DNA from: Chelativorans salis
GTDB taxonomy: Bacteria > Pseudomonadota > Alphaproteobacteria > Rhizobiales > Rhizobiaceae
Assembly: GCF_025336525.1 (NCBI RefSeq)
Contig: NZ_JAOCZP010000006.1
Coordinates: 206,482-270,481, forward strand
Direction of reading: 5' to 3'
DNA length: 64,000 nucleotides
Numbering within the stretch: position 1 is the stretch's first letter; each line of letters opens with the position of its first letter. The translations under genes were made by a program, and so were the position numbers. This document shows positions 27,706-52,555 of this stretch, one piece after another. A model generated the notes under the pieces. It searched no databases and was not told the origin of the DNA. It saw nothing but the letters and a program-made list of their open reading frames with translations.

Positions 27706-27810
27706 CGCGTGCTCCGATGGCTAGGCGATCATGCCGGCAAACGGCAATGTTCTAGGCAGGCAGGAAAGGTTGGGGGCAGCCGCAGTTGGCTGCCCCCTTG
27801 GCACGCGCTT

Positions 27811-28755: not shown

Positions 28756-28800
28756 TCCTCATTCCTCCCTTGTCAAATCAGTCGTTCAAAAAACCTTCAT

Positions 28801-30060: not shown

Positions 30061-30891
30061 CTACTCTGCCAGAAGACACCGAATGAGAGGGTGGCGTGGA
30101 TCTGTGAGACCGTCGATGACGGTGAAATGGTGACGGTCGGGCTCCACCACCGCTGAGGTGATCGCGCCGAGGCCCGTCCACACGTTTGCCAGAAGCTCGT
30201 TCTGGCGCAGGAATTCGGCACGCTCGTTCCCGCCCACCCAGCAGGTGACGCGCGCGCCTTCCATCGGGCGCAGCAGCGCCGGACTTTCGGCCCCTGCCTC
30301 CGCTTCGTCGATAAGGAGCTCTGCATTCATGGTCGTGCGCATCAGCGGGCGCAGATCGTGCACGCCGGAAATCGAGACGACACGGCGGATGCGTTCCCGG
30401 ACGGGAGACGCAAGCGGCGTGGTGGCTGAAACCATGCGGCCGACGAGGTGACCGCCTGCCGAGTGCCCCGTCAGCATCAGCGGACCCTCGACCATGGCCG
30501 CGGCCGCTTCGATGGCGGCGGATACCTCCCGCACGATGCCGCCGATACGGACTTCCGGGCAGAGCGTGTAGGACGGCATCGCCACGGCATAGCCGCTTTC
30601 CAGAGCGCCTGCGGCTAGATGTGACCAATAGCTCTTGTCGAAACGCAGCCAGTAACCTCCGTGGATAAAGACGACGAGGCCCTGGGGCTTTTCAGGGGGA
30701 TGGAAGAGGTCCAGCCGGTTGCGCGGCCGGTCGCCATAGGCGAGATCGAGCTTTGCGCGGCCTGCCGCGAGAAGGCTCTCGCGAAAGCTTCGCGCCGGCT
30801 CCACCCACGCCTCCGGCCACCGATCCCCGCCCGGAATGTTGGGTCCGTTGGCGTAAGCATCGTCCCAATCGGTAATCAGGCGCTCGAACAT
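30061..30891 (-). CDS. Alpha/beta-hydrolase, likely N-formylkynurenine formamidase
   Basis: A 276-residue esterase-type hydrolase. The oxyanion-hole motif HGGYW (about 77-81), nucleophile elbow GHSAGG (Ser144) and a C-terminal acid/histidine pair (EPDRHHFTVID) are those of AFMID-type arylformamidases, unlike the metal-dependent KynB of many bacteria. ATG 30891 is 6 nt from GGAGG; ATG 30894 is possible. It is divergent from the anthranilate ligase-kynA operon, with kynU in the same island, so hydrolysis of N-formylkynurenine is the natural missing step. Enzyme class is clear; substrate comes from context. Confidence 0.75.
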   Translation of the reverse strand: MFERLITDWDDAYANGPNIPGGDRWPEAWVEPARSFRESLLAAGRAKLDLAYGDRPRNRLDLFHPPEKPQGLVVFIHGGYWLRFDKSYWSHLAAGALESGYAVAMPSYTLCPEVRIGGIVREVSAAIEAAAAMVEGPLMLTGHSAGGHLVGRMVSATTPLASPVRERIRRVVSISGVHDLRPLMRTTMNAELLIDEAEAGAESPALLRPMEGARVTCWVGGNERAEFLRQNELLANVWTGLGAITSAVVEPDRHHFTVIDGLTDPRHPLIRCLLAE

Positions 30892-30956
30892 CATGCTCCT
30901 CCCTCTTCAGCATAGAAGCGTGAGAAGGGGAGGCAGAGTCAACCTTCCCGCCAGAA

Positions 30957-30976
30957 ATTTTAGGCTTGAAGTAAAT
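30957..30976. promoter_or_regulatory. Candidate MarR operator, left end of island
   Basis: ATTTTAGGCTTGAAGTAAAT lies between the divergent hydrolase and ligase genes. Its core TTTTAGGCTTGAA (30958-30970) recurs exactly, on the other strand, at 47426-47438 before the monooxygenase/reductase gene. AT-rich dyads of this size are typical MarR sites. Confidence 0.7.
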
Positions 30977-31108
30977 GGCGCCCGGTGCCATCCTTGATTG
31001 GCTTCGACGAGGATGGGAGGCCGTCGTGCTTTTCGCTGTTTCCGCTATATTCAGGTGCTATGCACAAGCGCATTTCCGCGACACCCCCGCGACGAAGGAA
31101 GCCGCGTG

Positions 31109-32734
31109 ATGCTCGGGCCGACGGCACATGTCGACACCTTCACGCGCGACAACCTTCCGCCCGAGGATGCGTGGCCGGATTTCCTGCTCGAGGGGTTCGA
31201 GTATCCCGAATATCTCAATGCCGCCGTCGAACTGACGGACCGTATGGTGGAGAAGGGTTTCGGGGACCGCACGGCGCTGATCGGCAACGGCCGCCGCCGC
31301 ACCTACAAGGAGCTTTCCGACTGGACGAACCGGCTCGCCCATGCGCTGGTCGAGAATTACGGTGTGAAGCCAGGCAACCGGATCCTCATCCGCTCGGCGA
31401 ACAATCCGGCCATGGTGGCCTGCTGGCTGGCCGCCACCAAAGCCGGCGCCGTCGTCGTCAACACCATGCCGATGCTGCGCGCCGGCGAACTGGCAAAGAT
31501 CATCGACAAGGCCGAGATAGGCCTCGCGCTTTGCGACACCCGCCTAATGGACGAAGTCGTCGCCTGCGCCAAGGACAGCCGGTTCCTGAAACAGGTGGTG
31601 GGCTTCGACGGTACGGCGAACCACGACGCGGAGTTCGACCGCATCGCACTCAACAAGTCGGTCGTCTTTGAGGCTGTGAAAACCGGCCGCGACGATGTCG
31701 CCCTTCTCGGTTTCACCTCTGGCACCACGGGCGTGCCGAAGGCGACCATGCATTTCCACCGCGACCTGCTGGTCATCGCTGACGGCTATGCGAAGGAGAT
31801 CCTGCGGGTGACCCCCGACGATATCTTTGTCGGCTCCCCTCCCCTTGCCTTCACCTTCGGCCTTGGCGGACTGGCGATCTTCCCGCTACGCTTCGGCGCC
31901 GCCGCCACACTCCTGGAGCAGGCAACGCCGGCGAACATGATCGATATCATCGAGACCTACCGCGCGACCATCTCCTTCACCGCACCCACCGCGTACCGCG
32001 CCATGCTGAAGGCAATGGACGAGGGGGCGGACCTCTCCTCCCTCCGGGCGGCGGTCTCGGCGGGGGAAACGTTGCCGGGACCCGTCTTCGAAGAGTGGAT
32101 GGCGAAGACCGGCAAGCCGATTCTCGACGGCATCGGCGCTACCGAAATGCTGCACATCTTCATTTCCAACCGGTTCGAGGATCTGAAGCCCGGCTCGACC
32201 GGCCGCCCGGTCGGAGGCTATGAGGCGCGTATCGTCGACGAAGAGATGAACGAGCTTCCGCGCGACACGCCCGGCAGGTTGGCGGTGCGTGGGCCGACCG
32301 GCTGCCGTTACCTGGCCGACACGCGGCAGCAAGATTACGTGCGCGACGGCTGGAACATTACCGGCGATACGTTCCTTGAGGACGAGGACGGTTTCTTCCA
32401 CTTCGTCGCACGTTCCGACGACATGATCGTCAGCGCCGGCTATAACATCGCCGGTCCCGAAGTGGAGGCGGCGCTGCTGTCTCATGCCGATGTCGCCGAA
32501 TGCGCCGTGATCGGTGCGCCTGATGCTGAGCGCGGGCAGATTGTGGAAGCCCATGTCGTTTTGGTTCAGGGCATTGCACGCGATGAACTATGCGTGAAGC
32601 GCCTGCAGGACCATGTGAAGGCCACCATCGCGCCCTATAAATACCCACGCTCGGTGAGGTTCGTTGACGCCCTGCCCAAAACGCAGACAGGCAAGATCCA
32701 ACGGTTCCGGCTGAGGACGGAGAGGGTGCATTGA
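31109..32734 (+). CDS. 2-aminobenzoate (anthranilate)-CoA ligase
   Basis: A 541-residue AMP-forming acyl-CoA synthetase of the benzoate-CoA ligase branch. AAGGAA lies 8 nt before ATG 31109; the longer open frame is not used. The ATP loop is [18 protein letters not shown] (about 202-219), followed by [42 protein letters not shown] and the adenylation lysine in [11 protein letters not shown]. It would activate anthranilate released by KynU to 2-aminobenzoyl-CoA. Benzoate or salicylate are other possible substrates, but kyn genes on both sides favour anthranilate. It overlaps kynA (TTGA). Confidence 0.85.
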
Positions 32735-33567
32735 GCAAACCATACGATCCCTCCGAAGAAGGCGCCAAGATGTCCTTCCGGGACCGCATGTCCTATAGCG
32801 ACTATCTGCACCTGGAGAGCGTGCTTGATGCGCAGGAGCCGCTTTCCACCGCCCATGACGAGATGCTGTTCATCATCCAGCACCAAACATCGGAACTCTG
32901 GATGAAGCTGGCGCTGCACGAGCTGGGTTCGGCCATGCGGATGATCCGCACCGACCAACTTGAGCCCTCCTTTAAGATGCTGACGCGGGTGGCTCGCATC
33001 TTCGAACAGCTCAATAATGCCTGGGACGTACTGAGGACGATGACGCCCAGCGAATACACCGAGTTCCGGGATGCGCTCGGCCAGTCTTCGGGCTTTCAGT
33101 CCTGGCAATACCGCGCCATCGAGTTCACGGCCGGGAACCGCAACCCCGCGATGCTGCGTCCCCATATGCATAAGCCTGAACTCGTCGCGAAGCTGGAGGC
33201 GATCCTGGAGGAGCCTTCACTCTATGACGAAGCGATCCTGCTTCTTTCGCGCAACGGCTTCGACGTCGGCGCGGACGCCAGGCGAACCGACTGGCGCGAG
33301 GCGCGGGCCGAGAGCGAGGAAGTGCTGGGGGCCTGGCGGATCATCTATCAAGAGCCCCTGCGCTACTGGCAGTTCTATGAGCTTGCCGAGAAGCTGGTCG
33401 ACTTCGAGGACTATTTCCGCCGCTGGCGCTTCAACCATGTGACGACGGTGGAGCGCATCATCGGCATGAAAAGGGGTACTGGAGGCACGTCCGGCATTTC
33501 CTATCTCAAGAAGATGCTGGAGGTTGAACTGTTTCCCGAACTCTGGAAAGTTCGCACCAGCCTCTGA
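32731..33567 (+). CDS. kynA: Tryptophan 2,3-dioxygenase
   Basis: A 278-residue haem enzyme opening the tryptophan indole ring to N-formylkynurenine. The start is TTG 32731, overlapping the ligase stop; ATG 32770 is an alternative. Motifs: [36 protein letters not shown] (His51 near substrate), [34 protein letters not shown] and [13 protein letters not shown], where His236 should be the haem ligand. The C-terminal [13 protein letters not shown] is the mobile loop. Its place inside the ligase-transporter operon ties tryptophan uptake to breakdown. Confidence 0.97.
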
Positions 33568-33614
33568 GCCGCCAATCCGGAGGAAACAAAATGAAGAATA
33601 AGGAGGGGAATAAG

Positions 33615-34754
33615 ATGAAGGAAATTCTCGCAACCGGCCTCATCGGCCTGTCACTGGCGGTATCGGGCTATGCCCATGCCGAGCCGGTCAAGATCGGCGT
33701 CATCACCACGCTTTCGGGCGGAGGTGCAGGACTCGGCATCGACATGCGCGATGCCTTCACGCTGGCCATCGAACAATCCGGCAACGAGGAGATCGAGCTC
33801 GTCATCGAGGACGATGCACAGAAGCCCGAGCTTGCCGTTCAGATCGCCGAAAAGATGATCCAGAGCGACAAGGTCGACCTCATGACCGGCATCATCTGGT
33901 CGAACCTGGCCATGGCCGTTGTGCCCAACGCCGTGGCGCAGGATGTTATCTATCTTTCGCCCAATGCCGGCCCTTCGGTGCTCGCCGGCGCCAACTGCCA
34001 TCCGAACTACTTCAACGTCGCCTATCAGAACGACAATTTCCACGAGGCGATGGGGCAGTACGCAAACCAAGATTACAAGAACACCTTCATCCTCGCCCCC
34101 AATTATCCGGCCGGTAAGGATTCGCTCACCGGCTTCAAACGTTTCTACAAGGGTGAGCTCGCCGGCGAGGTCTACACGCAGGTCGGGCAGACCGACTATG
34201 CGGCCGAGATTGCGCAGATCCGCGCCTCCGGCGCCGACTCTGTCTTCTTCTTCCTGCCGGGCGGCATGGGTATCGCCTTCATGAAGCAGTACGCCCAGTC
34301 AGGTGTCGATATCCCCGTCATGGGGCCCGCTTTCTCGTTCAGCCAGGATATCCTTCCCGCCGTGGGTGACGCGGCACTTGGTGTGAAGAATTCGGCCACT
34401 TGGGCGAAAGACCTCGACAATGAGGCCAACAAGGCGTTCGTGGAGGCCTTTCAGGCTGAATACAACCGCCTGCCCTCTGTCTATGCGGCACAGAGTTGGG
34501 ATACGGCGAACCTGATCCTCTCCGCGCTCTCCAAGGCGAGTGTGAAAGACAAGGAGGCTTTCCGTGCGGCGCTGAAGGAGGCGGACTTCGACTCGGTTCG
34601 CGGTGAGTTCAAATTCAACACCAACAACCACCCGATCCAGAACGTCTATATCCGCGAGGTGGTGAAGGAGGACGACGTCCTCACCAACAAGATCGTCGGC
34701 ACCGCGTTCGAAGACCACACAGACGCTTACGCCGAACAGTGCAGCATGCAGTAA
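33615..34754 (+). CDS. HAAT-family ABC substrate-binding protein (LivJ/K type)
   Basis: About 379 residues from ATG 33615, with AAGGAGGGG ending 6 nt upstream and an immediate signal peptide (MKEILATGLIGLSLAVSGYAHA). ATG 33591, with GGAGGAAA before it, is an in-frame alternative that would lengthen the n-region. The mature protein has the type-I binding fold: VKIGVITTLSGGGAGLGIDMRDAF, LAVQIAEKMIQSDKVDLMTGI, FFFLPGGMGIAFMKQYAQSG. The genes around it suggest tryptophan, kynurenine or anthranilate as ligand. A perfect hairpin follows the stop. Confidence 0.9.
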   Translation: MKEILATGLIGLSLAVSGYAHAEPVKIGVITTLSGGGAGLGIDMRDAFTLAIEQSGNEEIELVIEDDAQKPELAVQIAEKMIQSDKVDLMTGIIWSNLAMAVVPNAVAQDVIYLSPNAGPSVLAGANCHPNYFNVAYQNDNFHEAMGQYANQDYKNTFILAPNYPAGKDSLTGFKRFYKGELAGEVYTQVGQTDYAAEIAQIRASGADSVFFFLPGGMGIAFMKQYAQSGVDIPVMGPAFSFSQDILPAVGDAALGVKNSATWAKDLDNEANKAFVEAFQAEYNRLPSVYAAQSWDTANLILSALSKASVKDKEAFRAALKEADFDSVRGEFKFNTNNHPIQNVYIREVVKEDDVLTNKIVGTAFEDHTDAYAEQCSMQ

Positions 34755-34772
34755 GCATAGAGCTGTCTCCAT

Positions 34773-34800
34773 GCCGCGCCGTCACTCATGACGGCGCGGC
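34773..34800 (+). repeat. Perfect 12-bp hairpin after the binding-protein gene
   Basis: GCCGCGCCGTCA (34773-34784) pairs with TGACGGCGCGGC (34789-34800) around loop CTCA. No T-run follows, so it should protect the upstream mRNA 3' end from exonucleases and keep binding protein more abundant than the membrane parts. Confidence 0.75.
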
Positions 34801-34864
34801 CACTCCGCCAGCTTGACGCTGAGGAAACAGCGACGCGTCAAATCGCAGCTCCGGATCGGCCTCC

Positions 34865-35785
34865 TTGTCCACCGCACTCTTGATCGAGCAACTGCTGAAC
34901 GGACTCCAGCTTGGGGTCATGCTTTTCCTGATGGCGGCGGGGCTGACGCTCATCTTTGGCGTCATGGGACTGATCAACCTCGCCCACGGCTCGTTCTACA
35001 TGATCGGCGCCTTCGCGTGCGCGACTGTCGCAGCAGCCACAGGCTCCTTCTGGACAGGGCTGGTTGCGAGCTTGATCGCTGCGGCAGCCGCCGGCGCAAT
35101 CGTTGAGATGGCTGTCATCCGAAGGCTCTATGAGCGCGATCACCTCGACCAGGTGCTCGCCACGTTCGCGCTGATCCTGATCTTTTCGGAAGGCACGCGC
35201 TGGCTGTTCGGCTCCTTCCCGCTCTATCTCGACATCCCTCCCCTGCTCCATGGCGCGGTCCCCCTGCCGGGAGGCGGACAATACCAGCTCTACCGGCTCG
35301 CCATCATCGGCGTCGGCATCGTCGTGGCGGTCGGGCTCTACCTGCTCATCTCCCGCACGCGTCTCGGCATGCGCATCCGCGCCGGCGAATCCGACCGTGA
35401 AATGATCGCCGCACTGGGCGTCGACATCTCGACGCTCTATACGGTCGTCTTCGCGCTGGGCGCCGCACTTGCCGGCCTTGCGGGTGCGCTGGTCGGTGCA
35501 CTGCAATCGGTGCAGGTCGGCATGGGCGAACCGGTGCTGATCCTCGCATTCGTGGTCATCGTCATCGGCGGCATCGGCTCCATCAAGGGCGCACTGTTCG
35601 GTGCCGTCCTGGTCGGCGTGGTGGACACACTGGGGCGGCTTCTCCTGCCGCAAGCACTGACGCTGATGCTCCCTCCCTCCCAGGCCGCTTTGATCGGCGG
35701 CGCACTGGCATCCATGTTGATCTATATCGTCATGGCGCTCATCCTCGCCTTTAGGCCGAGCGGCCTCTTTGCCGCGCAGTCATGA
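34865..35785 (+). CDS. Branched-chain-type ABC transporter permease (LivH)
   Basis: A 306-residue polytopic membrane protein. LLNGLQLGVMLFLMAAGLTLIFGVMGLINLAHGSFYMIGAF is the LivH signature; DREMIAALGVDISTLYTVVFALGAALAGLAGAL follows. TTG 34865 has no clear Shine-Dalgarno and TTG 34880 is possible, so the exact start is uncertain. Followed by livM with ATGA overlap. Confidence 0.9.
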   Translation: MSTALLIEQLLNGLQLGVMLFLMAAGLTLIFGVMGLINLAHGSFYMIGAFACATVAAATGSFWTGLVASLIAAAAAGAIVEMAVIRRLYERDHLDQVLATFALILIFSEGTRWLFGSFPLYLDIPPLLHGAVPLPGGGQYQLYRLAIIGVGIVVAVGLYLLISRTRLGMRIRAGESDREMIAALGVDISTLYTVVFALGAALAGLAGALVGALQSVQVGMGEPVLILAFVVIVIGGIGSIKGALFGAVLVGVVDTLGRLLLPQALTLMLPPSQAALIGGALASMLIYIVMALILAFRPSGLFAAQS

Positions 35786-36765
35786 GAAAGGTCGTGACAC
35801 GCGAAGCCATCGCCAACGGGAGCCTCGCCCTCCTGCTGCTGGCGGTGCCGTTCGCGGCGATCGCCATGGATGAACCCTTCTACGTGACGCTCGCGACGCG
35901 CATCGCCATACTGGCGCTGGCGGCGGTCGGCCTCAACATCGCGCTTGGCCTCGGCGGCCTGGTCTCTTTCGGCCATGCGGCCTTTTTCGGCCTCGGCGGA
36001 TACGCTGCGGGCATCCTTGCCACCCACGCCTTCAACGCCGAACCGCTTCTCCTCGGCATCCCCGCCACCACGTCTATGCCGGTGATCTGGCTGGTGGCGC
36101 TCGTCGTTTGTGGCCTCGTGGCGCTTCCCATCGGCGCGGTGAGCCTGCGCACCTCCGGCGTCTATTTCATCATGATCACCCTCGCCTTCGCACAGATGAT
36201 CTACTACTTCGCCATTTCCTGGCCCGCCTATGGCGGCCAGGATGGTCTTTCGATCTATGTCCGGAACAGCTTTCCGGGTGTGAACACCGCCCTGCCGCTT
36301 CCCCTCTTCCTGATCTGCTACGGTTTGCTTCTTCTGGGGCTTGTGCTCTTCTGGACGCTGCGCAACTCGCGCTTCGGCGCCGCACTTCAAGCGGCACGAC
36401 AGAACCCCACCCGGCTGGCGGCTGTCGGCATTGCACCCTTCAACATCCGGCTCACGGCTTTCACCGTCTCGGCAATGATTACCGGACTTGCCGGCGCGCT
36501 CTTTGCCGACCTCAACCGGTTTACGAGCCCGTCGATGCTTTCCTGGCACATGTCGGGCGAGCTGATCGTGCTCATCATCCTCGGCGGCAGGGGCCGGCTG
36601 TTCGGCCCGGTGGCGGGTGCGATGCTCTTTGTGCTCTTCGAATTTGCACTTGGCGGCATCACCGAACGCTGGCAGCTCTTCCTCGGTCTTATCCTGCTCG
36701 GCGTCGTGCTCTTTGCGCGCGGCGGGCTCATGGGCTTCATTGCGGGAAGGGAGCGGCATGGCTGA
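35782..36765 (+). CDS. Branched-chain-type ABC transporter permease (LivM)
   Basis: A 327-residue membrane protein. LAAVGLNIALGLGGLVSFGHAAFFGLGGYAAG and the C-terminal FTVSAMITGLAGALFADLNRFTSPSMLSWHMSGELIVLIILGG are diagnostic of LivM. Pairs with LivH as the transmembrane channel. Overlaps its neighbours on both sides (4 nt and 8 nt). Confidence 0.92.
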   Translation: MRKVVTREAIANGSLALLLLAVPFAAIAMDEPFYVTLATRIAILALAAVGLNIALGLGGLVSFGHAAFFGLGGYAAGILATHAFNAEPLLLGIPATTSMPVIWLVALVVCGLVALPIGAVSLRTSGVYFIMITLAFAQMIYYFAISWPAYGGQDGLSIYVRNSFPGVNTALPLPLFLICYGLLLLGLVLFWTLRNSRFGAALQAARQNPTRLAAVGIAPFNIRLTAFTVSAMITGLAGALFADLNRFTSPSMLSWHMSGELIVLIILGGRGRLFGPVAGAMLFVLFEFALGGITERWQLFLGLILLGVVLFARGGLMGFIAGRERHG

Positions 36766-37503
36766 ACCGGTGCTGGAAATTCGCGATCTCAAAAAGAGTT
36801 TCGGCGCGCTGAAGGCCACCGATGGCGTGAGTCTCCATCTCGCGTCCGGCGAGATCCACGCCCTTATCGGTCCCAACGGCGCGGGCAAGAGCACGCTCAT
36901 CCACCAGATTTCCGGTTCGCTGACGCCGGACAGCGGAAAGATCCGCTTCCTCGGTCAGGACATAGCCGGCCTGGACATGGCCGCACGGGCGCGGCTGGGA
37001 CTGGCACGCAGCTTCCAGACCTCCTCGCTGGCGCAGGAGTTTTCGGCGCTGCGCAACGTCATGCTCGCAGTGCAGGCGCGGCAAGGAACGAGCCTGCGCT
37101 TCTTCCGCCCCGTGATGCGCGACAGGAGCCTTACCGAACCGGCCATGGCCATGCTGGAGCGCGTGGGTCTTGCAGGCCGTGCGCACGTCCCGGCGGCGGA
37201 ATTGTCGCATGGCGAGCGCCGGCAGCTCGAGATCGCCACTGCTCTGGCGCTCGGACCGAAGGCGTTCCTACTGGACGAACCGATGGCCGGGATGGGTCCG
37301 GAAGGCGCGAAGAACCTCACGGGATTTCTCGATACCCTGCGCCAGGAGGCACCGATCCTTCTCGTCGAACATGACATGGATGCGGTCTTCGCGCTCGCCG
37401 ACCGCGTGTCCGTCCTCGTCTATGGCCGCATCATCGCCACGGGCGATGTGGACGAGATCCGCAACGATCCCGAAGTCCGCCGGGCCTATCTCGGAGAACC
37501 CGC

Positions 37504-37507
<4 letters not shown>
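36758..37507 (+). CDS. ABC transporter ATPase (LivG type)
   Basis: About 249 residues from ATG 36758 (MAEPVLEIRDLKKSFGALKA). Walker A GPNGAGKST, LivG-type insert LDMAARARLGLARSFQTSSL, signature LSHGERRQLEIATAL, Walker B FLLDEPMAGMGPEG and EHDMDAVFALADRV. The signature serine-histidine variant is normal for this family. Starts inside the livM end; ends with GTGA overlap. Confidence 0.94.
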
Positions 37508-38190
<683 letters not shown>

Positions 38191-38199
38191 GAAGCGCCC

Positions 38200-39447
38200 T
38201 CAGGTCACTGCCGCGCGGGCTGCAAAGCGCTCATCCTTCCAGACCTCCGTCCGCAGCGCCTCTTCCAGAATCTCCACCGCCTGCCAGACATCCAGATAAC
38301 GGAGATAGAGCGGCGCAAAGCCGAAGCGCATGATAGCGGGCGAGCGGAAGTCGCCGATCACGCCGCGAGCGATCAGCGCCTGCACGATCTCATAGGCGTG
38401 GTCATGGGTGAAGGAGACCTGGCTGCCGCGTTTCGCACCCCCGCGCGGACTTTCGAGCGCCAGGCCGAATGGGGCGCACTTGGCTTCGACGAGACGGATG
38501 AAGATATCAGTGAGCGCAAGGCTTTTTTCCCGCACGGCCGCCATATCCACGGTGTCCCAGATGTCGAGCGCCGCCTTCAATGCCCGCAGCGAGAGAACTG
38601 GCTGGGTGCCGCACTGGAATTTGCGGATACCCGCGTCGGCATCGAAGCGCGGTTCGAAAGCGAAGGGCCGCGCGTGTCCCCACCAGCCGCTGAGCGGTTG
38701 GCGCGCCTCGGCCTGATGGCGCTGGGCGACATAGATGAAGGCAGGCGAGCCGGGACCGCCATTCAGATATTTGTAAGTGCAGCCGACGGCGAAATCGACT
38801 CTCGCGCCATCGAGATCGACAACCAACGCGCCGGCCGAATGGCATAGGTCCCAGACGACCAGAGCGCCGGCCTCATGTGCCCTCTGCGTCAGCGCTGCCA
38901 TGTCGCGCAACTCGCCGGTCTTGTAGTTCACGTGGTTGACGAGGACGACGGCGACGCGATCATCGATCAGTTCCTCGATCGTCGGCGCATCAACCCCTTC
39001 GAGGAGCAGCCGCGCATCCGGCTGCGTGGAGATGACGCCTTCCGCCATATAGAGATCGGTGGGAAAACTGCTCCCTTCGGCGACGATGACCGAGCGGCCA
39101 CGCCGCAGCCCCATCGCTGCATGTAAAGCCTTGTAGATGTTGATCGAGGTCGTGTCGCAGACGACGGTCTGGCCCGGCGTGGCACCGATCAGCCGGCCGA
39201 TCCGGTCGCCGAGTTCGACCGGCAAGTCGAACCAACCGGCGCTGTTCCAGCTGCGGATCAGGCCCTCGCCCCATTCCTCTCGTGCGGCCTTCGCCAATTC
39301 GTTGAAGACGGCGGGGGATGCCGGCCCCAGCGAATTGCCGTCGAGATAGATGACGCCCTCGGGCAGGCTGAACTGATTGCGCATCGAGCGCAGTGGATCG
39401 GCGTCGTCCATCGCCTTGACGGCGGCGAGATCCGGAACCTGGCTCAT
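38200..39447 (-). CDS. kynU: Kynureninase
   Basis: A 415-residue PLP enzyme cleaving kynurenine to anthranilate and alanine. ATG 39447 follows AAGGA; upstream sequence in frame belongs to the FadB-like gene. Motifs: YLDGNSLGPAS, NSAGWFDLPVELGDRIGRLIG, CDTTSINIYKAL, LVNHVNYKTGELRDM, VVWDLCHSAGAL (Asp200) and GCTYKYLNGGPGSPAF with the Schiff-base lysine K226. Overlaps the upstream FadB-like gene (ATGA). Last gene of the minus-strand operon, giving anthranilate to the ligase. Confidence 0.96.
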   Translation of the reverse strand: MSQVPDLAAVKAMDDADPLRSMRNQFSLPEGVIYLDGNSLGPASPAVFNELAKAAREEWGEGLIRSWNSAGWFDLPVELGDRIGRLIGATPGQTVVCDTTSINIYKALHAAMGLRRGRSVIVAEGSSFPTDLYMAEGVISTQPDARLLLEGVDAPTIEELIDDRVAVVLVNHVNYKTGELRDMAALTQRAHEAGALVVWDLCHSAGALVVDLDGARVDFAVGCTYKYLNGGPGSPAFIYVAQRHQAEARQPLSGWWGHARPFAFEPRFDADAGIRKFQCGTQPVLSLRALKAALDIWDTVDMAAVREKSLALTDIFIRLVEAKCAPFGLALESPRGGAKRGSQVSFTHDHAYEIVQALIARGVIGDFRSPAIMRFGFAPLYLRYLDVWQAVEILEEALRTEVWKDERFAARAAVT

Positions 39448-41429
39448 GGGAGCAATCCTTCCTTCGCAACGTACATCGGACCGCCCCGATGCGCGGGAAA
39501 GCCATAGCCGTTGATCATGACGAGATCGATATCGCTCGCCCTTTCGGCTATGCCCTCGGTCAAGAGGGCATCGCCCTCGGCAGCCATGGCGGCAAGCAGG
39601 CGCGATACGATCTCCTTTGAGGAAACGTCTCGCAGTGCGATGCCCTTCGCTTTCCGGCACGACTCGATCAAGGCCGTCACCTCCGGATCAATGGTACGCT
39701 TCCCGTTCGCGTAATCGTACCAGCCGCGGCCCGTCTTCTGGCCAAACCGTCCCATCTCGCAGAGCCGGTCAGCAATCTCGACATAGCGCTCCGAAGGATC
39801 GCGGGTGGCCGCCTGGCGCTTGCGCCGCGCCCAGGCGATCTCGAGGCCCGCGAGATCGAAGACGGCAAACGGCCCCATGGCGAAGCCGTAGTCCTCCATC
39901 GCCGCGTCGATCTCCTGTGGCCAAGCGCCGTCTTCGACCAGAAACTCGGCCTCGCGGCGATATGCCGAGAAGATGCGGTTGCCGATGAAGCCTTCGCAGA
40001 CGCCGCACACGACGGGCAGCTTCTTGAGCCGGCGCGCGACGGCAACTCCGGTCGCAAGCACGTCTGGAGCCGTCTTGGCGCAGCGCACGACCTCGACCAG
40101 CCGCATCACATGCGCAGGCGAGAAGAAGTGGAGGCCGCAGACGCGCTCCGGCCGGGATGTCGCCGCCGCGATGGCGTCGGGATCAAGATAGCTCGTATTG
40201 GTGGCAAGAACCACCTCCGGCCGGACGATCCCGTCCAGCGTCGCGAAAAGCTCCGTCTTGACGTCAAGGTCATCGAAGACCGCTTCGATGACGAGATCGG
40301 CAGCGGCAAACTCTTCGATATCACTGCCCACCGACAGCCGCTGCAGGCGCTCGGTGCGGCCTTCGGCATCGATACGTCCCGACTTCACCGCCCGGTCGAG
40401 GAGCCCGGTGATCCGGTCGAGGCCCTTCGCTACCGCCTCGGCCGTCTTCTCGACGACGATAACGCGATAGCCCGCATCGAGGGCGCAGACGACGATGCCG
40501 GAGCCCATCAGGCCGCTTCCGACCACGCCGACCGTATGCACCTTCCGCGGTTCAACACCTTCGAGTCCGGGCACTTTCGCCGCCGCGCGCTCGGCGAAGA
40601 AGACCTGACGCAGTGCCTTGCCCTGATCAGAGTCGCGCAGCCGCAGGAACGTGGCACGCTCGTCGGCGACCCCCTCCGCAAACGAACGGTCGCCGGTGCT
40701 TGTCACAAGCCGCACCGCTTCGGCCGGGGCCTCCCGTCCGCGCGCGCGAGACAAGGCCTTGTCGATCGCTTTATCGACGGCCCCCGGTTCCGCCGCCGGC
40801 ACGCTCAGGTCTCCTGTCCGGCGCAACGGCTGTGGTGCGAAATTCCGCGCGGCGGCGATCGCCGCGGCGAGGGGATCGTCCTCCACGACTTGGTCGACGA
40901 TACCGAGGGAGAGGGCTTCGCCCGCGGACACGTTGCGCCCGGTAGCAATCAGTTCCACAGCCTTTGCGACACCGATGAGACGCGGGAGGCGCTGTGTGCC
41001 CCCTGCCCCCGGCACGATGCCGAGTTTTACTTCAGGCAACCCGAGACTTGCCCTACCACTGGCGATGCGGCGATGGCAGGCAAGCGCAATCTCGAGACCG
41101 CCCCCGAGAGCGGCACCATTGATGGCCGCCACCACGAGTTTTCCGCTCTCCTCGATCGCGTCGACAACATCAGGCAGGATAGGTTCGGTTGCCGGCTGCC
41201 CGAACTCCTTGATGTCGGCGCCGCCGACAAAGGTGTTCCCCGCGCCGGTGAGGACCACAGCACGGACTTCCCCCTCGGCGCTGGCGTGGCGGATCGCCGC
41301 CAGCAGGCCGGAACGCAGGTCTGCCGAGGCGGCGTTGACCGGTGGATTGTCCATGGTGAGGACGAGAACCCCGTCTTCCATCCTTGCTGAAACGGTCGCG
41401 GAAAAACGGATTGGTGACGCTTCGCCCAT
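39444..41429 (-). CDS. Enoyl-CoA hydratase / 3-hydroxyacyl-CoA dehydrogenase fusion (FadB/FadJ-like)
   Basis: A 661-residue two-domain beta-oxidation enzyme. The crotonase half (about 1-195) has GAGNTFVGGADIKEF, GGGLEIALACH (Glu113) and LPEVKLGIVPGAGGTQRLPR (Glu133). The NAD half starts at VGVVGSGLMGSGIVVCAL (about 302-319); FFSPAHVMRLVEVVR and GFIGNRIFSAYRREAEFLVEDGA follow, with a repeated C-terminal helical domain. In this operon it probably acts on alicyclic CoA esters formed after reduction of 2-aminobenzoyl-CoA. A general fatty-acid role cannot be excluded. Confidence 0.92.
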   Translation of the reverse strand: MGEASPIRFSATVSARMEDGVLVLTMDNPPVNAASADLRSGLLAAIRHASAEGEVRAVVLTGAGNTFVGGADIKEFGQPATEPILPDVVDAIEESGKLVVAAINGAALGGGLEIALACHRRIASGRASLGLPEVKLGIVPGAGGTQRLPRLIGVAKAVELIATGRNVSAGEALSLGIVDQVVEDDPLAAAIAAARNFAPQPLRRTGDLSVPAAEPGAVDKAIDKALSRARGREAPAEAVRLVTSTGDRSFAEGVADERATFLRLRDSDQGKALRQVFFAERAAAKVPGLEGVEPRKVHTVGVVGSGLMGSGIVVCALDAGYRVIVVEKTAEAVAKGLDRITGLLDRAVKSGRIDAEGRTERLQRLSVGSDIEEFAAADLVIEAVFDDLDVKTELFATLDGIVRPEVVLATNTSYLDPDAIAAATSRPERVCGLHFFSPAHVMRLVEVVRCAKTAPDVLATGVAVARRLKKLPVVCGVCEGFIGNRIFSAYRREAEFLVEDGAWPQEIDAAMEDYGFAMGPFAVFDLAGLEIAWARRKRQAATRDPSERYVEIADRLCEMGRFGQKTGRGWYDYANGKRTIDPEVTALIESCRKAKGIALRDVSSKEIVSRLLAAMAAEGDALLTEGIAERASDIDLVMINGYGFPAHRGGPMYVAKEGLLP

Positions 41430-41435
41430 GGAACC

Positions 41436-41831
41436 CTACTCCGGTACGACGGCCATCGCCTGAATCTCTACCTTGGCGCGGTCTTCCATCAGCGCCACCA
41501 CCTGCACGGCGGTCATGGCGGGATAGTACCAGCCCATCACCTCGCGGTAGACGACGCCGATCTTCTTGAGGTTATCGAGATAGTCGGCCTTGTCGGTAAA
41601 ATACCAGGTCATGGAAGTGATATGTTCCGGCCGCGCATCCGCCTCCGCGAGCACGGCCGCCACATTGAGAAGGGTCTGCCGCACCTGCGCGACCAGATCG
41701 TCGCTCTCGAACTCACACTTCTCGTTCCACCCGATCTGACCGCTGACGAAGACGAGCCTGCCGTGGGCGGCGATGCCGTTTGCATAACCTTTGGGTCTTG
41801 CCCATCCCTTGGGCTGCAGAACGCTATGCAT
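41436..41831 (-). CDS. RidA/YjgF-family protein lacking the usual catalytic arginine
   Basis: A 131-residue Rid protein. ATG 41831 is 4 nt from GAGGAG. YANGIAAHGRLVFVSGQIGWN and KVEIQAMAVVP mark the fold. RidA imine deaminases have Arg105 in a P-A-R-S context; here the aligned segment is YPAMTAV (Met106), so canonical RidA chemistry is doubtful and a Rid4-7-like subgroup is likelier. The pathway intermediate 2-amino-5-oxocyclohexenecarbonyl-CoA carries an enamine, so a deaminating or protective role is attractive but inferred. Six nt upstream of the FadB-like gene. Confidence 0.85.
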   Translation of the reverse strand: MHSVLQPKGWARPKGYANGIAAHGRLVFVSGQIGWNEKCEFESDDLVAQVRQTLLNVAAVLAEADARPEHITSMTWYFTDKADYLDNLKKIGVVYREVMGWYYPAMTAVQVVALMEDRAKVEIQAMAVVPE

Positions 41832-41879
41832 GAAACTCCTCAATCTAGGAAAACCAACCTTTCAAATCGGCGAGCGGCG

Positions 41880-43028
41880 TCACGTCATACCCAGCACCTG
41901 TCGGGCGATCACCACCTTCTGCACGTCCGACGCGCCTTCATAGATGCGCAGCGCCCGGATCTCACGATAGAGACTTTCAACGATATGCCCGCGCCGCACG
42001 CCATCGCCGCCGTGAAGCTGCACGGCACGGTCGATCACTTCTTGCGCCCGGTCGGTGGCGAAGAGCTTCGCCATCGCCGCCTCGCGGGTGACGCGGGCAG
42101 CGCCCCTATCCTTCGTCCAGGCCGCGCGGTAGACGAGAAGTGCCGCCGCGTCCACATCCAGCGCCATATCCGCCAGATGCCCCTGCACCATCTGCAACTC
42201 GGCCATCGGCGCGCCGAAGAGCTTCCGCTCGGCCGCCCGCTTCACGCTCTCATCGAGCGCACGGCGGGCGAAGCCCAGAGCCGCGGCACCCACCGTCGAG
42301 CGAAACACGTCGAGCACCGACATGGCGATGCGAAACCCCTCGCCCGGCTTGCCGATCATGGCGGAGGCTGGAACACGCGCGCCATCAAACGAAAGGCGTG
42401 CAAGCGGATGCGGCGCAATCACCTCCAGCCGCTCGGCGATTTTCAAGCCCTTGGTGTCCGCTGGCACCACAAACGCGGAGATGCCCTTGGAGCCCGGCGC
42501 CTCGCCGGTACGGGCGAATAGGACGTAGAGATCAGCAATGCCGCCATTGGAGATCCAGGTCTTCTCGCCCGTGAGGACGTAGGAGCCGCCGTCCAGCGTC
42601 GCGCTCATTTCCATGTTTGCCACATCGGAGCCCGACCGCGGCTCGGAAAGGGCGAAAGCGGAGATCGCTTCGCCGGCACGTGTCTTGTCGAGCCAGCGCT
42701 GCTGCTCCGATGTCCCGTAAAAGCTGATGGCACCGGTGCCGAGCCCCTGCATGGCGAAGGCGAAGTCGGCAAGTCCATCATGGCGTGCCAGAGTCTCGCG
42801 GGTGATGCAGAGTGTGCGCACATCGAGGGGCGCGGGATCGGCAGGATCGACCGCCGTCGGCTTCAGCCAGCCGTCACGCCCGAGCGCCCGCACCAGCTCG
42901 CGGCAGGCGGCATCCACATCGTCATGGGCGACCGGCAGGTTCGCCGCACACCAGGCTTCGAGCCGCTCGGCATACTCGCGGTGGCGGTCTTCGAAGAAGG
43001 GCCAGGTGAAGAAGCTTTTGTCCGCCAT
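41880..43028 (-). CDS. Acyl-CoA dehydrogenase
   Basis: A 382-residue FAD enzyme from ATG 43028 ([20 protein letters not shown]). Motifs: [23 protein letters not shown] and [23 protein letters not shown] (FAD and substrate site), [30 protein letters not shown], and [24 protein letters not shown] with the catalytic-type Glu. It would introduce or remove a ring or chain double bond in the CoA pathway. Overlaps the hydratase stop (ATGA). A 48-nt gap to the Rid gene follows. Confidence 0.93.
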
Positions 43029-43846
43029 CAATCGCCCCCGAACACCGGCTTTTTCTTGGCGACGAAGGCGCGGTAGGCGCGTTCGAAGTCGCGGGTCTGC
43101 ATGCAGATTGCCTGCGCCTGGGCTTCGGCTTCGATGGCTTGGTCGAGGCCCATCGACCATTCCTGATTGAGCTGCGTCTTGGTGATGCCATGGGCGAAGG
43201 TCGGGCCGGAGGCGATGCGGGCGGCGAGATCGAGGGCCTCCGCCTCCAGCGTGTCGGCGGAGACCAGCCTGTTGTAAAAGCCCCAGCGCTCTCCTTCCTC
43301 CGCGCTCATCGTGCGACCGGTGTAGAGAAGCTCCGCCGCCCGCCCCTGGCCGATGATGCGCGGCAGGATCGCACAGGCGCCCATGTCGCAACCGGCAAGG
43401 CCGACGCGTGTGAAGAGGAAGGCGGTTTTGGCTTCGGGCGTGGCGAGGCGAATGTCCGAGGCCATGGCGAGGATCGCGCCGGCGCCCACCGCAACACCGT
43501 CCACCGCGGCGATGATCGGCTTGCCGCAATTGAGCATCGCCTTGACGAGATCGCCCGTCATGCGGGTGAAGGCCAGAAGCTCCTTCATCTCCAAGCCGAC
43601 CAGTGGGCCGATGATGTCGTGCACGTCGCCGCCGGAGCAGAAATTGCCGCCGTTCGGCAGAAGCACCACGGCGTCGACATCCTCGGCGTAGGCGAGATTG
43701 CGGAAGGTATCGCGGAGTTCCGCATAGGAGGCGAAGGTGAGCGGGTTCTTCCGCTCGGGCCGGTCGAGCTTCACCACCGCAACCCGGTCCTCCATGCGCC
43801 AGAGGAAGTGTTCGGGCACAAGGCCCGCCATCTTAGTCGGAGTCAA
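43028..43846 (-). CDS. Enoyl-CoA hydratase/isomerase family protein
   Basis: About 272 residues. TTG 43846 ([14 protein letters not shown]...) overlaps the MarR stop as TTGA and has GGGAGGG upstream; ATG 43831 lacks a nearby Shine-Dalgarno. Crotonase motifs: [16 protein letters not shown] (oxyanion hole), [27 protein letters not shown] and [24 protein letters not shown]. The residue usually filled by the first catalytic Glu is Ala/Ile here, so it may be an isomerase or hydrolase rather than a hydratase; ring-cleaving hydrolysis in the anthranilate-CoA route is one option. Confidence 0.85.
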
Positions 43847-44319
43847 TGCTCGCCCTCCCAGTTGCTGCGGAATGCGTGGAGCATTTCGGAAAGCCGGTGC
43901 ACTTCGAATGTGTCTACGCCGCCGAGGAGTTCGGCGATCCAACTTTCATGGGCGGCAGCCATCTTCTTGAAGGCGCCCATGCCTGCCGGCGTCAGGCGCA
44001 CCACCGAGGTGCGCTTGTCCCCCTCGCGCTTGGTGCGCGTCACATAGCCGTCAGCCACCAGCCGGTCGATGATGCCCGTGACGTTGCCGTTGGAGACCAG
44101 CAGGAAACGCGAGAGGTCGCTCATCAGCATACCCTCGCGCTCGCGATAGAGCGCCGACATGACGTCGAAACGCGGCAGGGTGGAATCAAACTCGCGTTTG
44201 AGCCGCTCGCGCAACTCCGCCTCCACGATGCGCGTGGTGCGCAGCATGCGGATCCAGAGGCGCAGGCGCTCCTTGTCACCCGGTCCTGCATCGGCCACCG
44301 CCAGCGGCGCGCTCACCAT
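43843..44319 (-). CDS. MarR-family transcriptional regulator
   Basis: A 158-residue dimeric winged-helix protein: [49 protein letters not shown] (recognition region) and [18 protein letters not shown] (wing). Encoded inside the minus-strand operon between SDR and hydratase, overlapping both. Close relatives in aromatic-CoA clusters respond to the aryl-CoA; 2-aminobenzoyl-CoA is the likely ligand here. The shared motif at 30957 and 47422 is its probable operator. Confidence 0.9.
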
Positions 44320-45077
44320 GTCTCACCCCCCGAAATCGATATGGTCTGGCCGGTAACCGAGGCCGCACCCGGGCTGCAGAGCCAGAGCACTGCCGAAGCC
44401 ACCTCCTCCGGCTGAATGAACCTGCCCTGCGGATTGGCAGCCATCAAGCTTGCGCGGGCTTCTTCCTCAGAACGCCCGGTCTTTTCGACGATGCGGGCGA
44501 CAGATTCGGCGAGCATGTCCGTCTCCACGAAACTTGGGCAGACGGCGTTCACCGTGATCTCCGTCTTGGAAAACTCCACCGCGAGCGCGCGCATGAGGCC
44601 GACCACACCGTGCTTGGAGGCAACGTACGGCGCAACATAGCCATAGCCTTTGAGACCCGCGACGGAGGCAACAAAAATGATGCGGCCCTTCTTCTGTGCA
44701 GCCATTCCCTCGAGCGCGGGTTGGACGGTGACGAACGCGCCAGTGAGGTTGACGTCCATCGTCTTCTTCCAGGCATCCAACGTGGTCTTGGCGGCTGGGG
44801 CGCTTGACGAAATTCCGGCATTTGCGATGACAATATCGACTGGTCCGCGCGCTGCCTCGGCATCCCGGTAAAGCCGGTCCATTGAGGCTTGATCGGTTAC
44901 ATCCCCGGCAATCGCGTGGATATGCGGGTGCTCCCCAGCAACCATTTCCAGCGCCTCGATACGCCTGCCGCAGATGGTGACCTGGATGCCGGCATCGGCT
45001 AGCGTCAGGGCGATCGCCTTTCCGACGCCCGAGCCACCGCCGGTCACTAGCGCGTGCTTGCCGACGACCACCGCCAT
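44313..45077 (-). CDS. Short-chain dehydrogenase/reductase
   Basis: A 254-residue NAD(P) enzyme. TGGGSGVGKAIAL is the cofactor loop; NAGISS, the catalytic serine region IIFVASVAGLKGYG, and YVASKHG (Tyr and Lys) are complete. ATG 45077 overlaps the stop of the previous gene (TGATG); GTG 45080 is possible. It probably oxidises or reduces a hydroxy/oxo group on the alicyclic CoA intermediate. Confidence 0.92.
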   Translation of the reverse strand: MAVVVGKHALVTGGGSGVGKAIALTLADAGIQVTICGRRIEALEMVAGEHPHIHAIAGDVTDQASMDRLYRDAEAARGPVDIVIANAGISSSAPAAKTTLDAWKKTMDVNLTGAFVTVQPALEGMAAQKKGRIIFVASVAGLKGYGYVAPYVASKHGVVGLMRALAVEFSKTEITVNAVCPSFVETDMLAESVARIVEKTGRSEEEARASLMAANPQGRFIQPEEVASAVLWLCSPGAASVTGQTISISGGETW

Positions 45078-47368
45078 CACACTTTTCCCAGCATGGCATC
45101 CCGCCGTTCGGCAAGCCGGTAAGCCTGCTCACGGCCCCGAAGATAGGGATCGGGCCATCTGACGTGGCGATCGCCGAGCTCGACGGCGGCATGAAGCGTC
45201 CAATAGGGGTCTGCGAGGTGCGGCCGTGCGAGGCACACTAGGTCGGCACGTCCCGCCATCAGGATCGAGTTTACATGGTCCGGCTCATAGATGTTGCCGA
45301 CCGCCATGGTGGCCATGCCGGTCTCGTTGCGGATGCGGTCCGAGAACGGGGTCTGGAACATGCGGCCATAGACGGGCTCGGCCCGAAGCGAGGTCTGTCC
45401 GGCCGATACGTCGCAGATATCGACGCCAGCCGCCTGCAGCATGCGGGCGATCTCCACCGCGTCCTCGGGGCGGATGCCCTCCTCGCCAACCCAGTCGTTC
45501 GCCGAGATGCGAACCGAAATCGGCTTTTCATCCGGCCATGCCGCACGCACCGCATGGAACACCTCCAACGGGTAGCGCATACGGTTTTCCAGGCCGCCCC
45601 CATAGTCATCGGTGCGCCGATTGGTGAGCGGCGTGATGAAGGCCGACAAAAGATAGCCGTGCGCCATGTGGAGTTCCAGCATGTCGAAGCCGGCGCGGTC
45701 GGCCATCTCGGCAGAGGCAACGAAGGCGTGGAGTACGTCGTCCATATCCTTGCGCGTCATCTCCTTCGGGATCTGATGGAGATTGCTCCACGGGACCGCC
45801 GAAGGCGCGAGCAGCGGCCAATTGCCGGAGACGAGCGGCGCTTCAGAATCCTCCCAGGGAACCTGGGTCGAGCCCTTCGGGCCGGAATGGCCGATCTGGG
45901 CGCAAATCTTCGCTTCGGTCTCGCGATGGACGAAGTCGACGATCCTCTTCCAGGCGCTCTCGTGCTCGGGCTTGTAGAAGCCGGGGCAGCCGGGCGATAT
46001 ACGCCCATCGGGCGTCACGCAGGTCATTTCGATATAGACCAGCCCCGCCCCGCCCTTTGCGCGCTCGGCATAGTGGACGAAATGCCAGTCGGTCGGGCAG
46101 CCGTCGACCGCCCTGTACTGGGCCATGGGCGAAACCACGATGCGGTTTTTCAGCCGCATGTCGCGCAGCCGGAAGGGCGCGAACATCGGCGGGCGGGCGC
46201 CGTTCACGTTGCTCCCCGCCCGGTGCTGGAACCACGCCTCGGCACTCCCCAGCCATTCCGGATCGCGCAAGCGCAGGTTCTCGTGGCTGATGCGCTGCGA
46301 GCGGGTGAGCAGCGAATAGTTGAACTGCACCGGATCGAGATGGAGGTAGCGCTCCACGTCCTCGAACCATTCGAGCGAGTTGCGCGCCGCCGACTGCAGC
46401 TTCAGCACCTCCGTGCGGCGGGCGTCCTCGTATTTCGCAAAGGCGGCCTCGCGCGTCGGCTCGGAGTGAAGGTAGTCCGCCAGCGCCACGGCGCTTTCAA
46501 GCGCGAGCTTTGTGCCCGAGCCGATGGAAAAATGCGCGCTCGCCGCCGCGTCGCCCATGAGCGCCAGGTTCTCGTGGGACCAGCGCGCGCACAGCACACG
46601 GGGGAAATTGATCCAGGCCGAGCCACGGATGTGGCTGGCGTTGGACATAAGCTTGTGACCCCCAAGGTGTGCGGCGAATAACCTTTCGCAGGTGGCGATG
46701 GACTCTTCTTTCGACATCTCGCCGAAGCCGAACTTTTCCCACGTCTTCTGAGAGCACTCGACGATGAACGTGGCCGTGTCATTATCGAACTGATAGGCGT
46801 GCGCCCAGACCCATCCGTGTTCCGTCTCTTCGAAGATGAAGGTGAACGCGTCGTCGAATTTCTGATGCGTGCCGAGCCAGACGAACTTGCACTTGCGGAT
46901 GTCGATATCGGGCTGGAAGGCTTCGGCGAAGACGGTGCGCGACTTGGAGTTCAGGCCATCGGCAGCGAGGACGATGTCATGGCTTTCCATGAAGGGGCGT
47001 GGATCATCTATCTCCGTCTGAAAGCGCAGATCGACGCCGAGTTCGCGCGCCCGCTCCTGCAGGAGAACGAGCAGCTTTTTGCGGCCGATGCCGCAGAAGC
47101 CGTGGCCGGTCGAGACCGTCCGCGTGCCGCGGTAGAAAACGGCAATGTCGTCCCAATAGGCGAAATGCTCGCGGATCGCAGTGGCGCTCACGGGGTCGTT
47201 GGCTGTCAGGTTGGTAAGCGTCTCGTCCGACAGGACGACCCCCCAGCCGAAGGTGTCGTCCGGACGATTACGCTCGTAGACAGTGACCTCGTGGCCGGCA
47301 TCCCGCAGCTTCATCGAGATCGCAAAGTAAAGGCCGGCCGGACCGCCTCCCAGAACCGCAACCTTCAT
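45077..47368 (-). CDS. 2-aminobenzoyl-CoA monooxygenase/reductase-type fusion flavoenzyme
   Basis: A 763-residue fusion. Residues 1-390 form a class-A FAD monooxygenase: [20 protein letters not shown] at 8-27 and [21 protein letters not shown] at 271-291. From Met395 on, it is an old-yellow-enzyme FMN reductase ([52 protein letters not shown]). This layout is shared by 2-aminobenzoyl-CoA monooxygenase/reductase and salicylyl-CoA 5-hydroxylases; kynureninase and an anthranilate ligase in the island favour the first, which hydroxylates and reduces the ring without a dioxygenase. The start follows GAGGA. First gene of the minus-strand operon. Confidence 0.88.
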
Positions 47369-47421: not shown

Positions 47422-47441
47422 ATATTTCAAGCCTAAAATAT
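47422..47441. promoter_or_regulatory. Candidate MarR operator, right end of island
   Basis: ATATTTCAAGCCTAAAATAT is an imperfect 20-bp dyad (outer six bases fully complementary) 54 nt upstream of the monooxygenase/reductase start. Its 13-bp core is identical to the reverse complement of the core at 30958-30970, 16 kb away. Confidence 0.75.
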
Positions 47442-52544: not shown

Positions 52545-52555
52545 TGCCGTCTCCC

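Follow-up and report, generated by a model that had tools for sequence, protein, structure and literature searches.

A conserved gene block in Chelativorans salis predicted to carry tryptophan through kynurenine and anthranilate to 2-aminobenzoyl-CoA

Genes for tryptophan breakdown and genes for CoA-dependent anthranilate breakdown lie side by side in Chelativorans salis, and the question raised by this locus is whether they make up one pathway. The window analysed here is a stretch of 64,000 nucleotides (RefSeq assembly GCF_025336525.1, contig NZ_JAOCZP010000006.1, positions 206,482 to 270,481 of the forward strand), in which a block of ~17 kb, out of a 5.66-Mb genome (19 contigs, 99% complete), encodes tryptophan 2,3-dioxygenase (KynA), kynureninase (KynU), an aryl-CoA ligase, a HAAT importer and a fused 2-aminobenzoyl-CoA monooxygenase/reductase (ACMR). 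We consider it very probable that the block serves to convert tryptophan via kynurenine and anthranilate to 2-aminobenzoyl-CoA, which is likely then de-aromatised, and that a predicted importer and a shared 13-bp element belong to the same system.

In the proposed scheme, KynA would convert tryptophan to N-formylkynurenine, an AFMID-like hydrolase would remove the formyl group, KynU would release anthranilate and alanine, and the ligase would form 2-aminobenzoyl-CoA. This would likely be de-aromatised by ACMR to an enamine, which a Rid-family protein likely hydrolyses to 2,5-dioxocyclohexanecarboxyl-CoA and ammonium; a PaaG-like crotonase (ECH) would likely open the ring, and an SDR oxidoreductase, an acyl-CoA dehydrogenase (ACAD) and a FadJ-like protein likely feed beta-oxidation. 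A MarR-family regulator would probably repress both operons through the shared element, with release probably by an aryl-CoA.

All genes named by an earlier, sequence-only reading of this DNA were found in place by family scans, in which translations of open reading frames were compared with Pfam and with NCBIfam models at their curated cut-offs (Table 1). Its pair of convergent operons also stands: the last base of livF is 38190 and the kynU stop starts at 38200, which leaves a gap of 9 bp. The rightward operon reads ligase-kynA-SBP-livHMGF, SBP being the substrate-binding protein, and the minus-strand operon, from ACMR to kynU, reads ACMR-SDR-MarR-ECH-ACAD-RidA-FadJ-kynU. Two corrections are needed: the Rid gene had been overlooked, and the AFMID-like gene is divergent from the ligase gene, being a separate unit that is part of neither operon.

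The kynurenine side is the more readily assigned. Tryptophan 2,3-dioxygenase and kynureninase, the two enzymes taken as diagnostic of the pathway, both exceed their cut-offs (TIGR03036, 420.8 versus 390.7 bits; TIGR01814, 354.1 versus 246.4 bits). The AFMID-like hydrolase is a candidate N-formylkynurenine formamidase: it scores 375.8 bits with NF058665 (cut-off 320), and its matches among solved proteins include 2pbl as the best (E 1.5e-76) and the Drosophila kynurenine formamidase 4e11 (E 6.5e-15). No KynB above cut-off was found in the genome, where the one match was weak (43.5 versus 223.05 bits).

The CoA side depends on what the ligase accepts. A different assignment would have the block handle salicylate or benzoate, the ligase making salicylyl- or benzoyl-CoA and the fusion being a salicylyl-CoA 5-hydroxylase. 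Database names speak for it, since the top NCBIfam model of the ligase is the benzoate-CoA ligase family TIGR02262 (368.6 bits, slightly below the cut-off of 375.25) and the fusion's own model, NF006101, is named salicylyl-CoA 5-hydroxylase. So does an ACMR-like fusion on a Cupriavidus taiwanensis plasmid (L041:15001-19533), which lies by a cupin gene and a fumarylacetoacetate-hydrolase-type gene; the block's other proteins are unmatched within 32 kb there, and that fusion perhaps has a different substrate. Against it stands the pocket of the ligase, whose closest solved structure is the anthranilate-CoA ligase 4wv3 (286 bits, versus 260 bits for the benzoate-CoA ligase 2v7b). In AuaEII, eight residues are required for anthranilate interactions and T221 bonds the amino group, according to the accessible part of PMC11253843; seven of the eight are identical in the window ligase, the eighth being C319 replaced by A. 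T221 and F222 (AuaEII numbering) are kept in the window ligase and in 88/88 homologues from the collected loci (best match per locus, L036-L161), all of which carry the motif F-T-F, whereas the benzoate-CoA ligases 2v7b, 4rm3, 4rlf and 4eat read F-A-Y, with A and Y at the T221 and F222 places. As far as sequence can tell, the pocket motif is of the anthranilate type, not the benzoate type, and the enzyme is predicted to be a 2-aminobenzoate-CoA ligase. The salicylate/benzoate route was rejected on this motif. Also opposed to it are the kyn genes alongside, the finding that none of the genes scanned in the block is of the gentisate ring-cleavage type, and the JGI source name for several listed homologues, anthraniloyl-CoA monooxygenase; we hold this route to be highly improbable.

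Outside the window, the same genome carries a paralogue (L002:1417-4098, G000:C12) in which an ACMR-type hydroxylase domain is fused to a benzoate-CoA-ligase domain. Its ligase domain exceeds the TIGR02262 cut-off (421.6 bits) and has the benzoate-type F-A-Y; the frame exceeds the locus.

With the anthranilate-type pocket, the ligase shows one of the two features sought as marks of an Azoarcus-type pathway; the other, a full-length fusion of a monooxygenase with an old yellow enzyme (OYE) domain, is seen in ACMR, which matches NF006101/PRK08255 over residues 1-758 of 763 (1271.9 versus 1078 bits). Across 24 aligned ACMR sequences H570, G571 and Y572 are invariant and H567 nearly so, residues that we take to be catalytic in OYEs. 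The best protein match is from Chelativorans xinjiangense (94% identity). The name 'salicylyl-CoA 5-hydroxylase' probably misdescribes this ACMR and its close kin. A metagenome-assembled genome (MAG) record labelled Mesoflavibacter (L121, CP051228.1), a genus of Bacteroidota, also has an alphaproteobacterial-type ACMR operon, with ACMR 72% identical; this reflects either transfer or a mislabelled assembly.

Is the block conserved? Among 16 genomes of the genus, 10 have ACMR, and six of the nine others keep the two-operon layout (L122-L125, L127, L128), with AFMID not found in L124 and FadJ not found in L125, L127 and L128. L130 has the joined order in a single direction; L126 and L129 have no kyn match in the 20 kb taken. 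In a family sample of 121 genomes (ligase counted at E 1e-170 or better), ACMR occurs in 72, KynU in 66 and the ligase in 63, and all 63 ligase-bearing genomes also carry ACMR. Of the 56 genomes in which ACMR, ligase and KynU are all present, 43 have the ligase close to ACMR and 31 have it close to KynU, with seven cases near KynU but not ACMR and six near neither. In 299 genomes taken to be Pseudomonadota, ACMR was found in 41, KynA in 59 and KynU in 67; KynA is present in 31/41 ACMR genomes versus 28/258 others (Fisher p 1.5e-17, kinship ignored), and ACMR, KynA and KynU fall within ~15 kb in 8 of the 41 (own genome included, five labelled families, counted by eye).

The search for similar blocks that had been proposed along with the sequence-only reading was also run on named records, and many relatives have them. 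A profile built from the 24 aligned ACMRs was compared with genome contigs; it gave 593 confirmed loci, of which the best 80 were taken, with ≤10 kb per side and 34/80 shorter than 20 kb. Counts from this set are minimum values and favour close relatives. In these best 80 there are at least 25 loci with KynA, 17 with KynU and 17 with both, and at least 59 with ligase, 47 with Rid, 73 with MarR and 75 with SDR; KynA, KynU and AFMID co-occur in at least 10, and KynA, KynU, SBP and ligase in at least nine (Aquibium, Aquamicrobium, a Rhizobiaceae MAG, three Thalassospira, Sulfitobacter and two Ahrensia). Chance adjacency was rejected, given the layout kept in the genus, the ligase/ACMR coupling in the family and the repeated joining in trees described below. 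The block is real, conserved and functionally coherent, and it is a known kind of cluster, not a rare one. The suggestion that a contiguous, transporter-equipped version is little described does not survive: it recurs (nine of the best 80; ACMR and KynU ≤20 kb apart in 27/57 family genomes with both) and the combination has been published. The suggestion that the kynurenine route feeds directly into the CoA route gains from the ligase pocket, from the genome-wide coupling of ligase and ACMR and, within the limits of that search given below, from the lack of a match to the large subunit of anthranilate 1,2-dioxygenase in the genome.

The same samples hold the case for mere neighbours, that is, an ACMR operon and importer for environmental anthranilate beside a kynA and kynU that serve some other end of tryptophan metabolism, with no flux between them. 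More than 20 kb separates ACMR from KynU in 30 of the 57 family genomes that have the two, and in the phylum sample 33 of the 41 genomes with ACMR do not have ACMR, KynA and KynU within ~15 kb (by eye). There are also importer loci whose stretch contains no kyn gene. Yet where the loci are apart, as in five genomes of one related genus (L131-L135, close kin) in which ACMR lies elsewhere, the ligase accompanies kynA and/or kynU in a separate unit, and an exact copy of the shared element TTTTAGGCTTGAA precedes that unit in 5/5. In L131-L133 the AFMID-like gene, ligase and kynA are convergent to kynU; in L134 AFMID is unmatched and kynU is co-directed, and in L135 kynA is unmatched. The trees also tell against mere neighbours. 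In the KynU tree, a 100/98 branch separates the clade of the window from the single-direction one, and since linkage occurs in both of these deeply split clades, the two gene sets were probably joined more than once, although later gene replacement could also explain the pattern. In the KynA tree, island genomes group with separate-unit genomes at 97/97. Of the Mesorhizobium ACMR records, five (L045, L047-L049, L094) have no ligase match in the available flanks and L046 is joined. We consider an absence of flux between the two gene sets unlikely, and one joined pathway remains the preferred reading.

The importer has the full HAAT complement of an SBP, two permeases and two ATPases. The SBP belongs to Pfam Peripla_BP_6, and its closest solved structure is 4evq, the ligand of which we take to be aromatic. 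Its cargo is probably anthranilate or a similar acid, judging from gene context, because related importers adjoin ACMR in many kyn-free loci: an SBP was matched in 27 records, 15 of which have no kyn genes nearby, and the same holds for L037, L038 and L040. On annotated plasmids, ACMR and importer are found together, with kyn genes unmatched in the stretch shown, in Paracoccus denitrificans, Phyllobacterium and Sulfitobacter guttiformis.

As to the steps after ACMR, the Rid protein has A at position 117, where R is found in 2/78 aligned rows (in 2 others it lies one column earlier); the arginine conserved in imine-hydrolysing Rid proteins (RidA, Rid1-3; Arg105 in TdcF) is thus missing. A plain RidA role is disfavoured, because Rid groups without this arginine apparently do not hydrolyse imines, their roles being unknown, whereas a deaminase role has precedent, because a Rid-family 2-aminomuconate deaminase is named in aromatic metabolism (both from the accessible part of PMC4433059). 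We infer that a CoA ester would offer no free carboxylate for such an arginine to hold. Part of the text of PMC3534580 reports, for anthranilate-grown Arthrobacter sp. Rue61a, CoA esters of acids C7H7NO3 and C7H8O4; the former is presumably hydroxyanthranilate, and the latter, which has the formula that the deaminated dione should have, might be a cyclohexanedione-carboxylate. With NF006107 (cut-off 330), the crotonase ECH scores 478.7 bits. At what we take, by the crotonase motif, to be the places of the two hydratase glutamates, it has I and R (by eye), and its homologues have I/M and R/K; an Asp matching that of PaaG-type 4fzw is present in 103/103 aligned sequences. Because the hydratase glutamates are replaced and the PaaG-like Asp is conserved, we propose that the crotonase may open the ring. 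Family scans found no thiolase among the block's genes.

Regulation offers a further test of unity. The 13-bp sequence TTTTAGGCTTGAA stands in front of the first genes of both operons, followed at both sites by GGTGC[CG]ATCCT, and these two copies are the only exact ones in the genome. The genus sample of 16 genomes holds 11 exact copies, nine of which precede the ligase/AFMID-like pair or ACMR. The stray copies away from the block, in two genus genomes (G308:C30:10375 and G313:C31:176159), are either chance or further regulon members. In other loci TTTTAGGCTTGAA is seen to be part of a perfect palindrome, TTTCAAGCTTGAAA. Within 150 bp upstream of ACMR this palindrome occurs with ≤3 mismatches in 90/112 loci (random windows 34/2240, shuffled upstreams 38/5600) and with ≤4 mismatches in 101/112 (94/2240 and 259/5600). 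At ≤4 mismatches it precedes internal genes in few cases (SDR 1/106, ACAD 3/97) and is near background before ligase (8/91), KynA (3/55) and KynU (5/57; random 70/1820, 51/1100 and 55/1140, respectively), which is expected if most of these genes lie inside operons. AFMID has it upstream in 33/42, many of which share the ACMR intergenic stretch.

A site before ACMR together with one before a distant kyn-side gene, as in L131-L135, was found also in L095, L116, L136 and L137. Off the ACMR promoter, 21/107 loci have a site (≤3 mismatches) within ≤350 bp of a kyn-side gene start, several of which resemble chance (L074, L078, L115, L149), and at separate kynU loci with no ligase match (L142, L148-L152) the best site across 18-19 kb has 3 to 4 mismatches. 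A promoter scan of 30800-31200 gave no promoter, the TTGAA of the element being too unlike TTGACA, and a scan of 38100-38300 gave neither promoter nor terminator. Neither such an operator nor a Rid step in this route is described in the literature searched (titles and abstract starts, with subscription papers mostly outside); the shared operator-like element and its palindrome are new here. MarR is the obvious candidate regulator. We would tentatively go further, in a joint proposal that we rate at somewhat less than even chances: on sequence grounds, TTTCAAGCTTGAAA may be an operator read by the MarR of the ACMR operon, defining a tryptophan-to-2-aminobenzoyl-CoA regulon that acts in trans when split and has been fused repeatedly, and, by analogy with 2-aminomuconate deaminase, the arginine-less Rid may be a dedicated deaminase of the ACMR product.

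Known systems resemble the block in part. The abm clusters of Azoarcus evansii likewise have a CoA ligase, beta-oxidation-type enzymes and a monooxygenase/reductase, the product of which is 2-amino-5-oxocyclohex-1-ene-1-carbonyl-CoA; unlike in the block, kyn genes go unmentioned in the accessible parts of PMC4539516 and PMC8388817. In Thalassospira marina pCSC3H3 (L039), the order ACMR-SDR-MarR-ECH-ACAD-ligase-kynU-kynA-thioesterase-RidA, with a divergent alpha/beta hydrolase and FadJ-like gene, is close in content; there, however, ACMR, ligase and kyn genes are co-directed in one apparent operon, KynU is of the other clade, and the HAAT importer is unmatched in 32 kb. The Ruegeria pomeroyi DSS-3 megaplasmid (L036) has an ACMR operon with ligase and RidA, and tryptophan 2,3-dioxygenase and an alpha/beta hydrolase divergent from it, but kynU and the HAAT importer are unmatched in 32 kb. 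The genome of Cupriavidus metallidurans CH34 contains abm as well as kyn genes (PMC8879955), and Streptomyces thermocarboxydus DF3-3 has abmG, kynU and tryptophan 2,3-dioxygenase, with a tryptophan-kynurenine-anthranilate route proposed (PMC9277890); in both, the joint gene arrangement is unstated in the portions available. Arthrobacter sp. Rue61a shares the CoA route, with anthranilate-CoA ligase activity by expression and CoA esters by liquid chromatography-mass spectrometry (portions of PMC3534580), but it is fed from quinaldine, and the main text contains no 'kynuren' word. A review states that a 2-aminobenzoyl-CoA gene cluster of an indole degrader proved vital for anthranilate degradation (excerpt of PMC6221969), the available text on Delftia PS-11 lists abmG and abmA with no 'kynuren' word (PMC13141888), and two papers whose titles concern quinolones, PMC3053476 and PMC12012761, contain both 'anthraniloyl-CoA' and 'kynurenin'.

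Having proposed one joined pathway, we would note several points that weigh against it. First, names and precedents: besides the name of the fusion discussed above, NF058665, the model matched by the AFMID-like hydrolase, is named lipase; the characterised Azoarcus 2-aminobenzoate-CoA ligase is listed with benzoate too (PMC8388817, accessible part); C. metallidurans CH34, with its abm and kyn genes, showed no growth on anthranilate (PMC8879955, accessible part); and the arginine required by RidA is missing from the operon's Rid. Second, the counted loci are related, not independent. Third, TTTTAGGCTTGAA with one mismatch occurs 28 times in the 16 genus genomes versus 48 for its reversed control, which leaves the exact form as the only informative one, and the presence of MarR is uninformative on the site (found in 84/103 loci with MarR and 6/9 without). 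Fourth, the evidence for a bypass of catechol and ring dioxygenases concerns anthranilate 1,2-dioxygenase: its large subunit (TIGR03228) is unmatched in the genome at E 1e-3, a negative that covers AntABC only, as the search did not extend to catechol dioxygenases, kynurenine 3-monooxygenase or further anthranilate hydroxylases, and 0/14 control genomes exceeded the cut-off either (6 weak matches).

Table 1. Genes and operator-like elements of the block, with window positions and the basis of each assignment.
Feature	Position	Strand	Basis
AFMID-like alpha/beta hydrolase, candidate N-formylkynurenine formamidase	30061..30894	-	NF058665; structure matches 2pbl, 4e11
Operator-like element TTTTAGGCTTGAA, between AFMID-like gene and ligase	30958..30970	+	
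Aryl-CoA ligase, predicted 2-aminobenzoate-CoA ligase	31109..32734	+	4wv3 relative, pocket residues
kynA, tryptophan 2,3-dioxygenase	32731..33567	+	TIGR03036 above cut-off
HAAT substrate-binding protein, predicted aromatic-acid binder	33591..34754	+	Pfam Peripla_BP_6; 4evq relative
LivH-type permease	34865..35785	+	family scan
LivM-type permease	35782..36765	+	family scan
LivG-type ATPase	36758..37507	+	family scan
LivF-type ATPase	37504..38190	+	family scan
kynU, kynureninase	38200..39447	-	TIGR01814 above cut-off
FadJ-like hydratase/3-hydroxyacyl-CoA dehydrogenase	39444..41429	-	family scans
Rid-family protein without catalytic arginine, candidate enamine deaminase	41436..41843	-	PF01042; residue 117 = A
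Acyl-CoA dehydrogenase family protein (ACAD)	41880..43028	-	family scan
Crotonase-fold protein (ECH, PRK08258) with PaaG-like Asp	43028..43846	-	NF006107 and alignment
MarR-family regulator	43843..44319	-	PF01047
SDR oxidoreductase	44313..45080	-	family scan
ACMR fusion, 2-aminobenzoyl-CoA monooxygenase/reductase	45077..47368	-	NF006101 above cut-off; alignment
Operator-like element TTTTAGGCTTGAA, upstream of ACMR	47426..47438	-	

Adjoining the block in the window are, on one side, genes for a TRAP fused permease, a TAXI binding protein and a sulfolactate/malate-dehydrogenase-like protein (25741-29877, minus strand) and, on the other, a shikimate dehydrogenase-like gene (48302-49234). At 51177-52916, a xanthine-dehydrogenase-type molybdenum subunit matched only the first part of its ~750-position profiles and may, from this partial match, be shortened or split.

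If the proposed pathway is correct, kynurenine-pathway carbon in many Alphaproteobacteria would enter, under the control of a single switch, a CoA-bound route that avoids catechol, and what follows ACMR would gain candidate genes in the Rid deaminase and the PaaG-like ring opener. The main value of the block is as a case in which the wiring of two known pathways to each other can be tested, the parts worth testing being the operator common to both operons and the step assigned to Rid.

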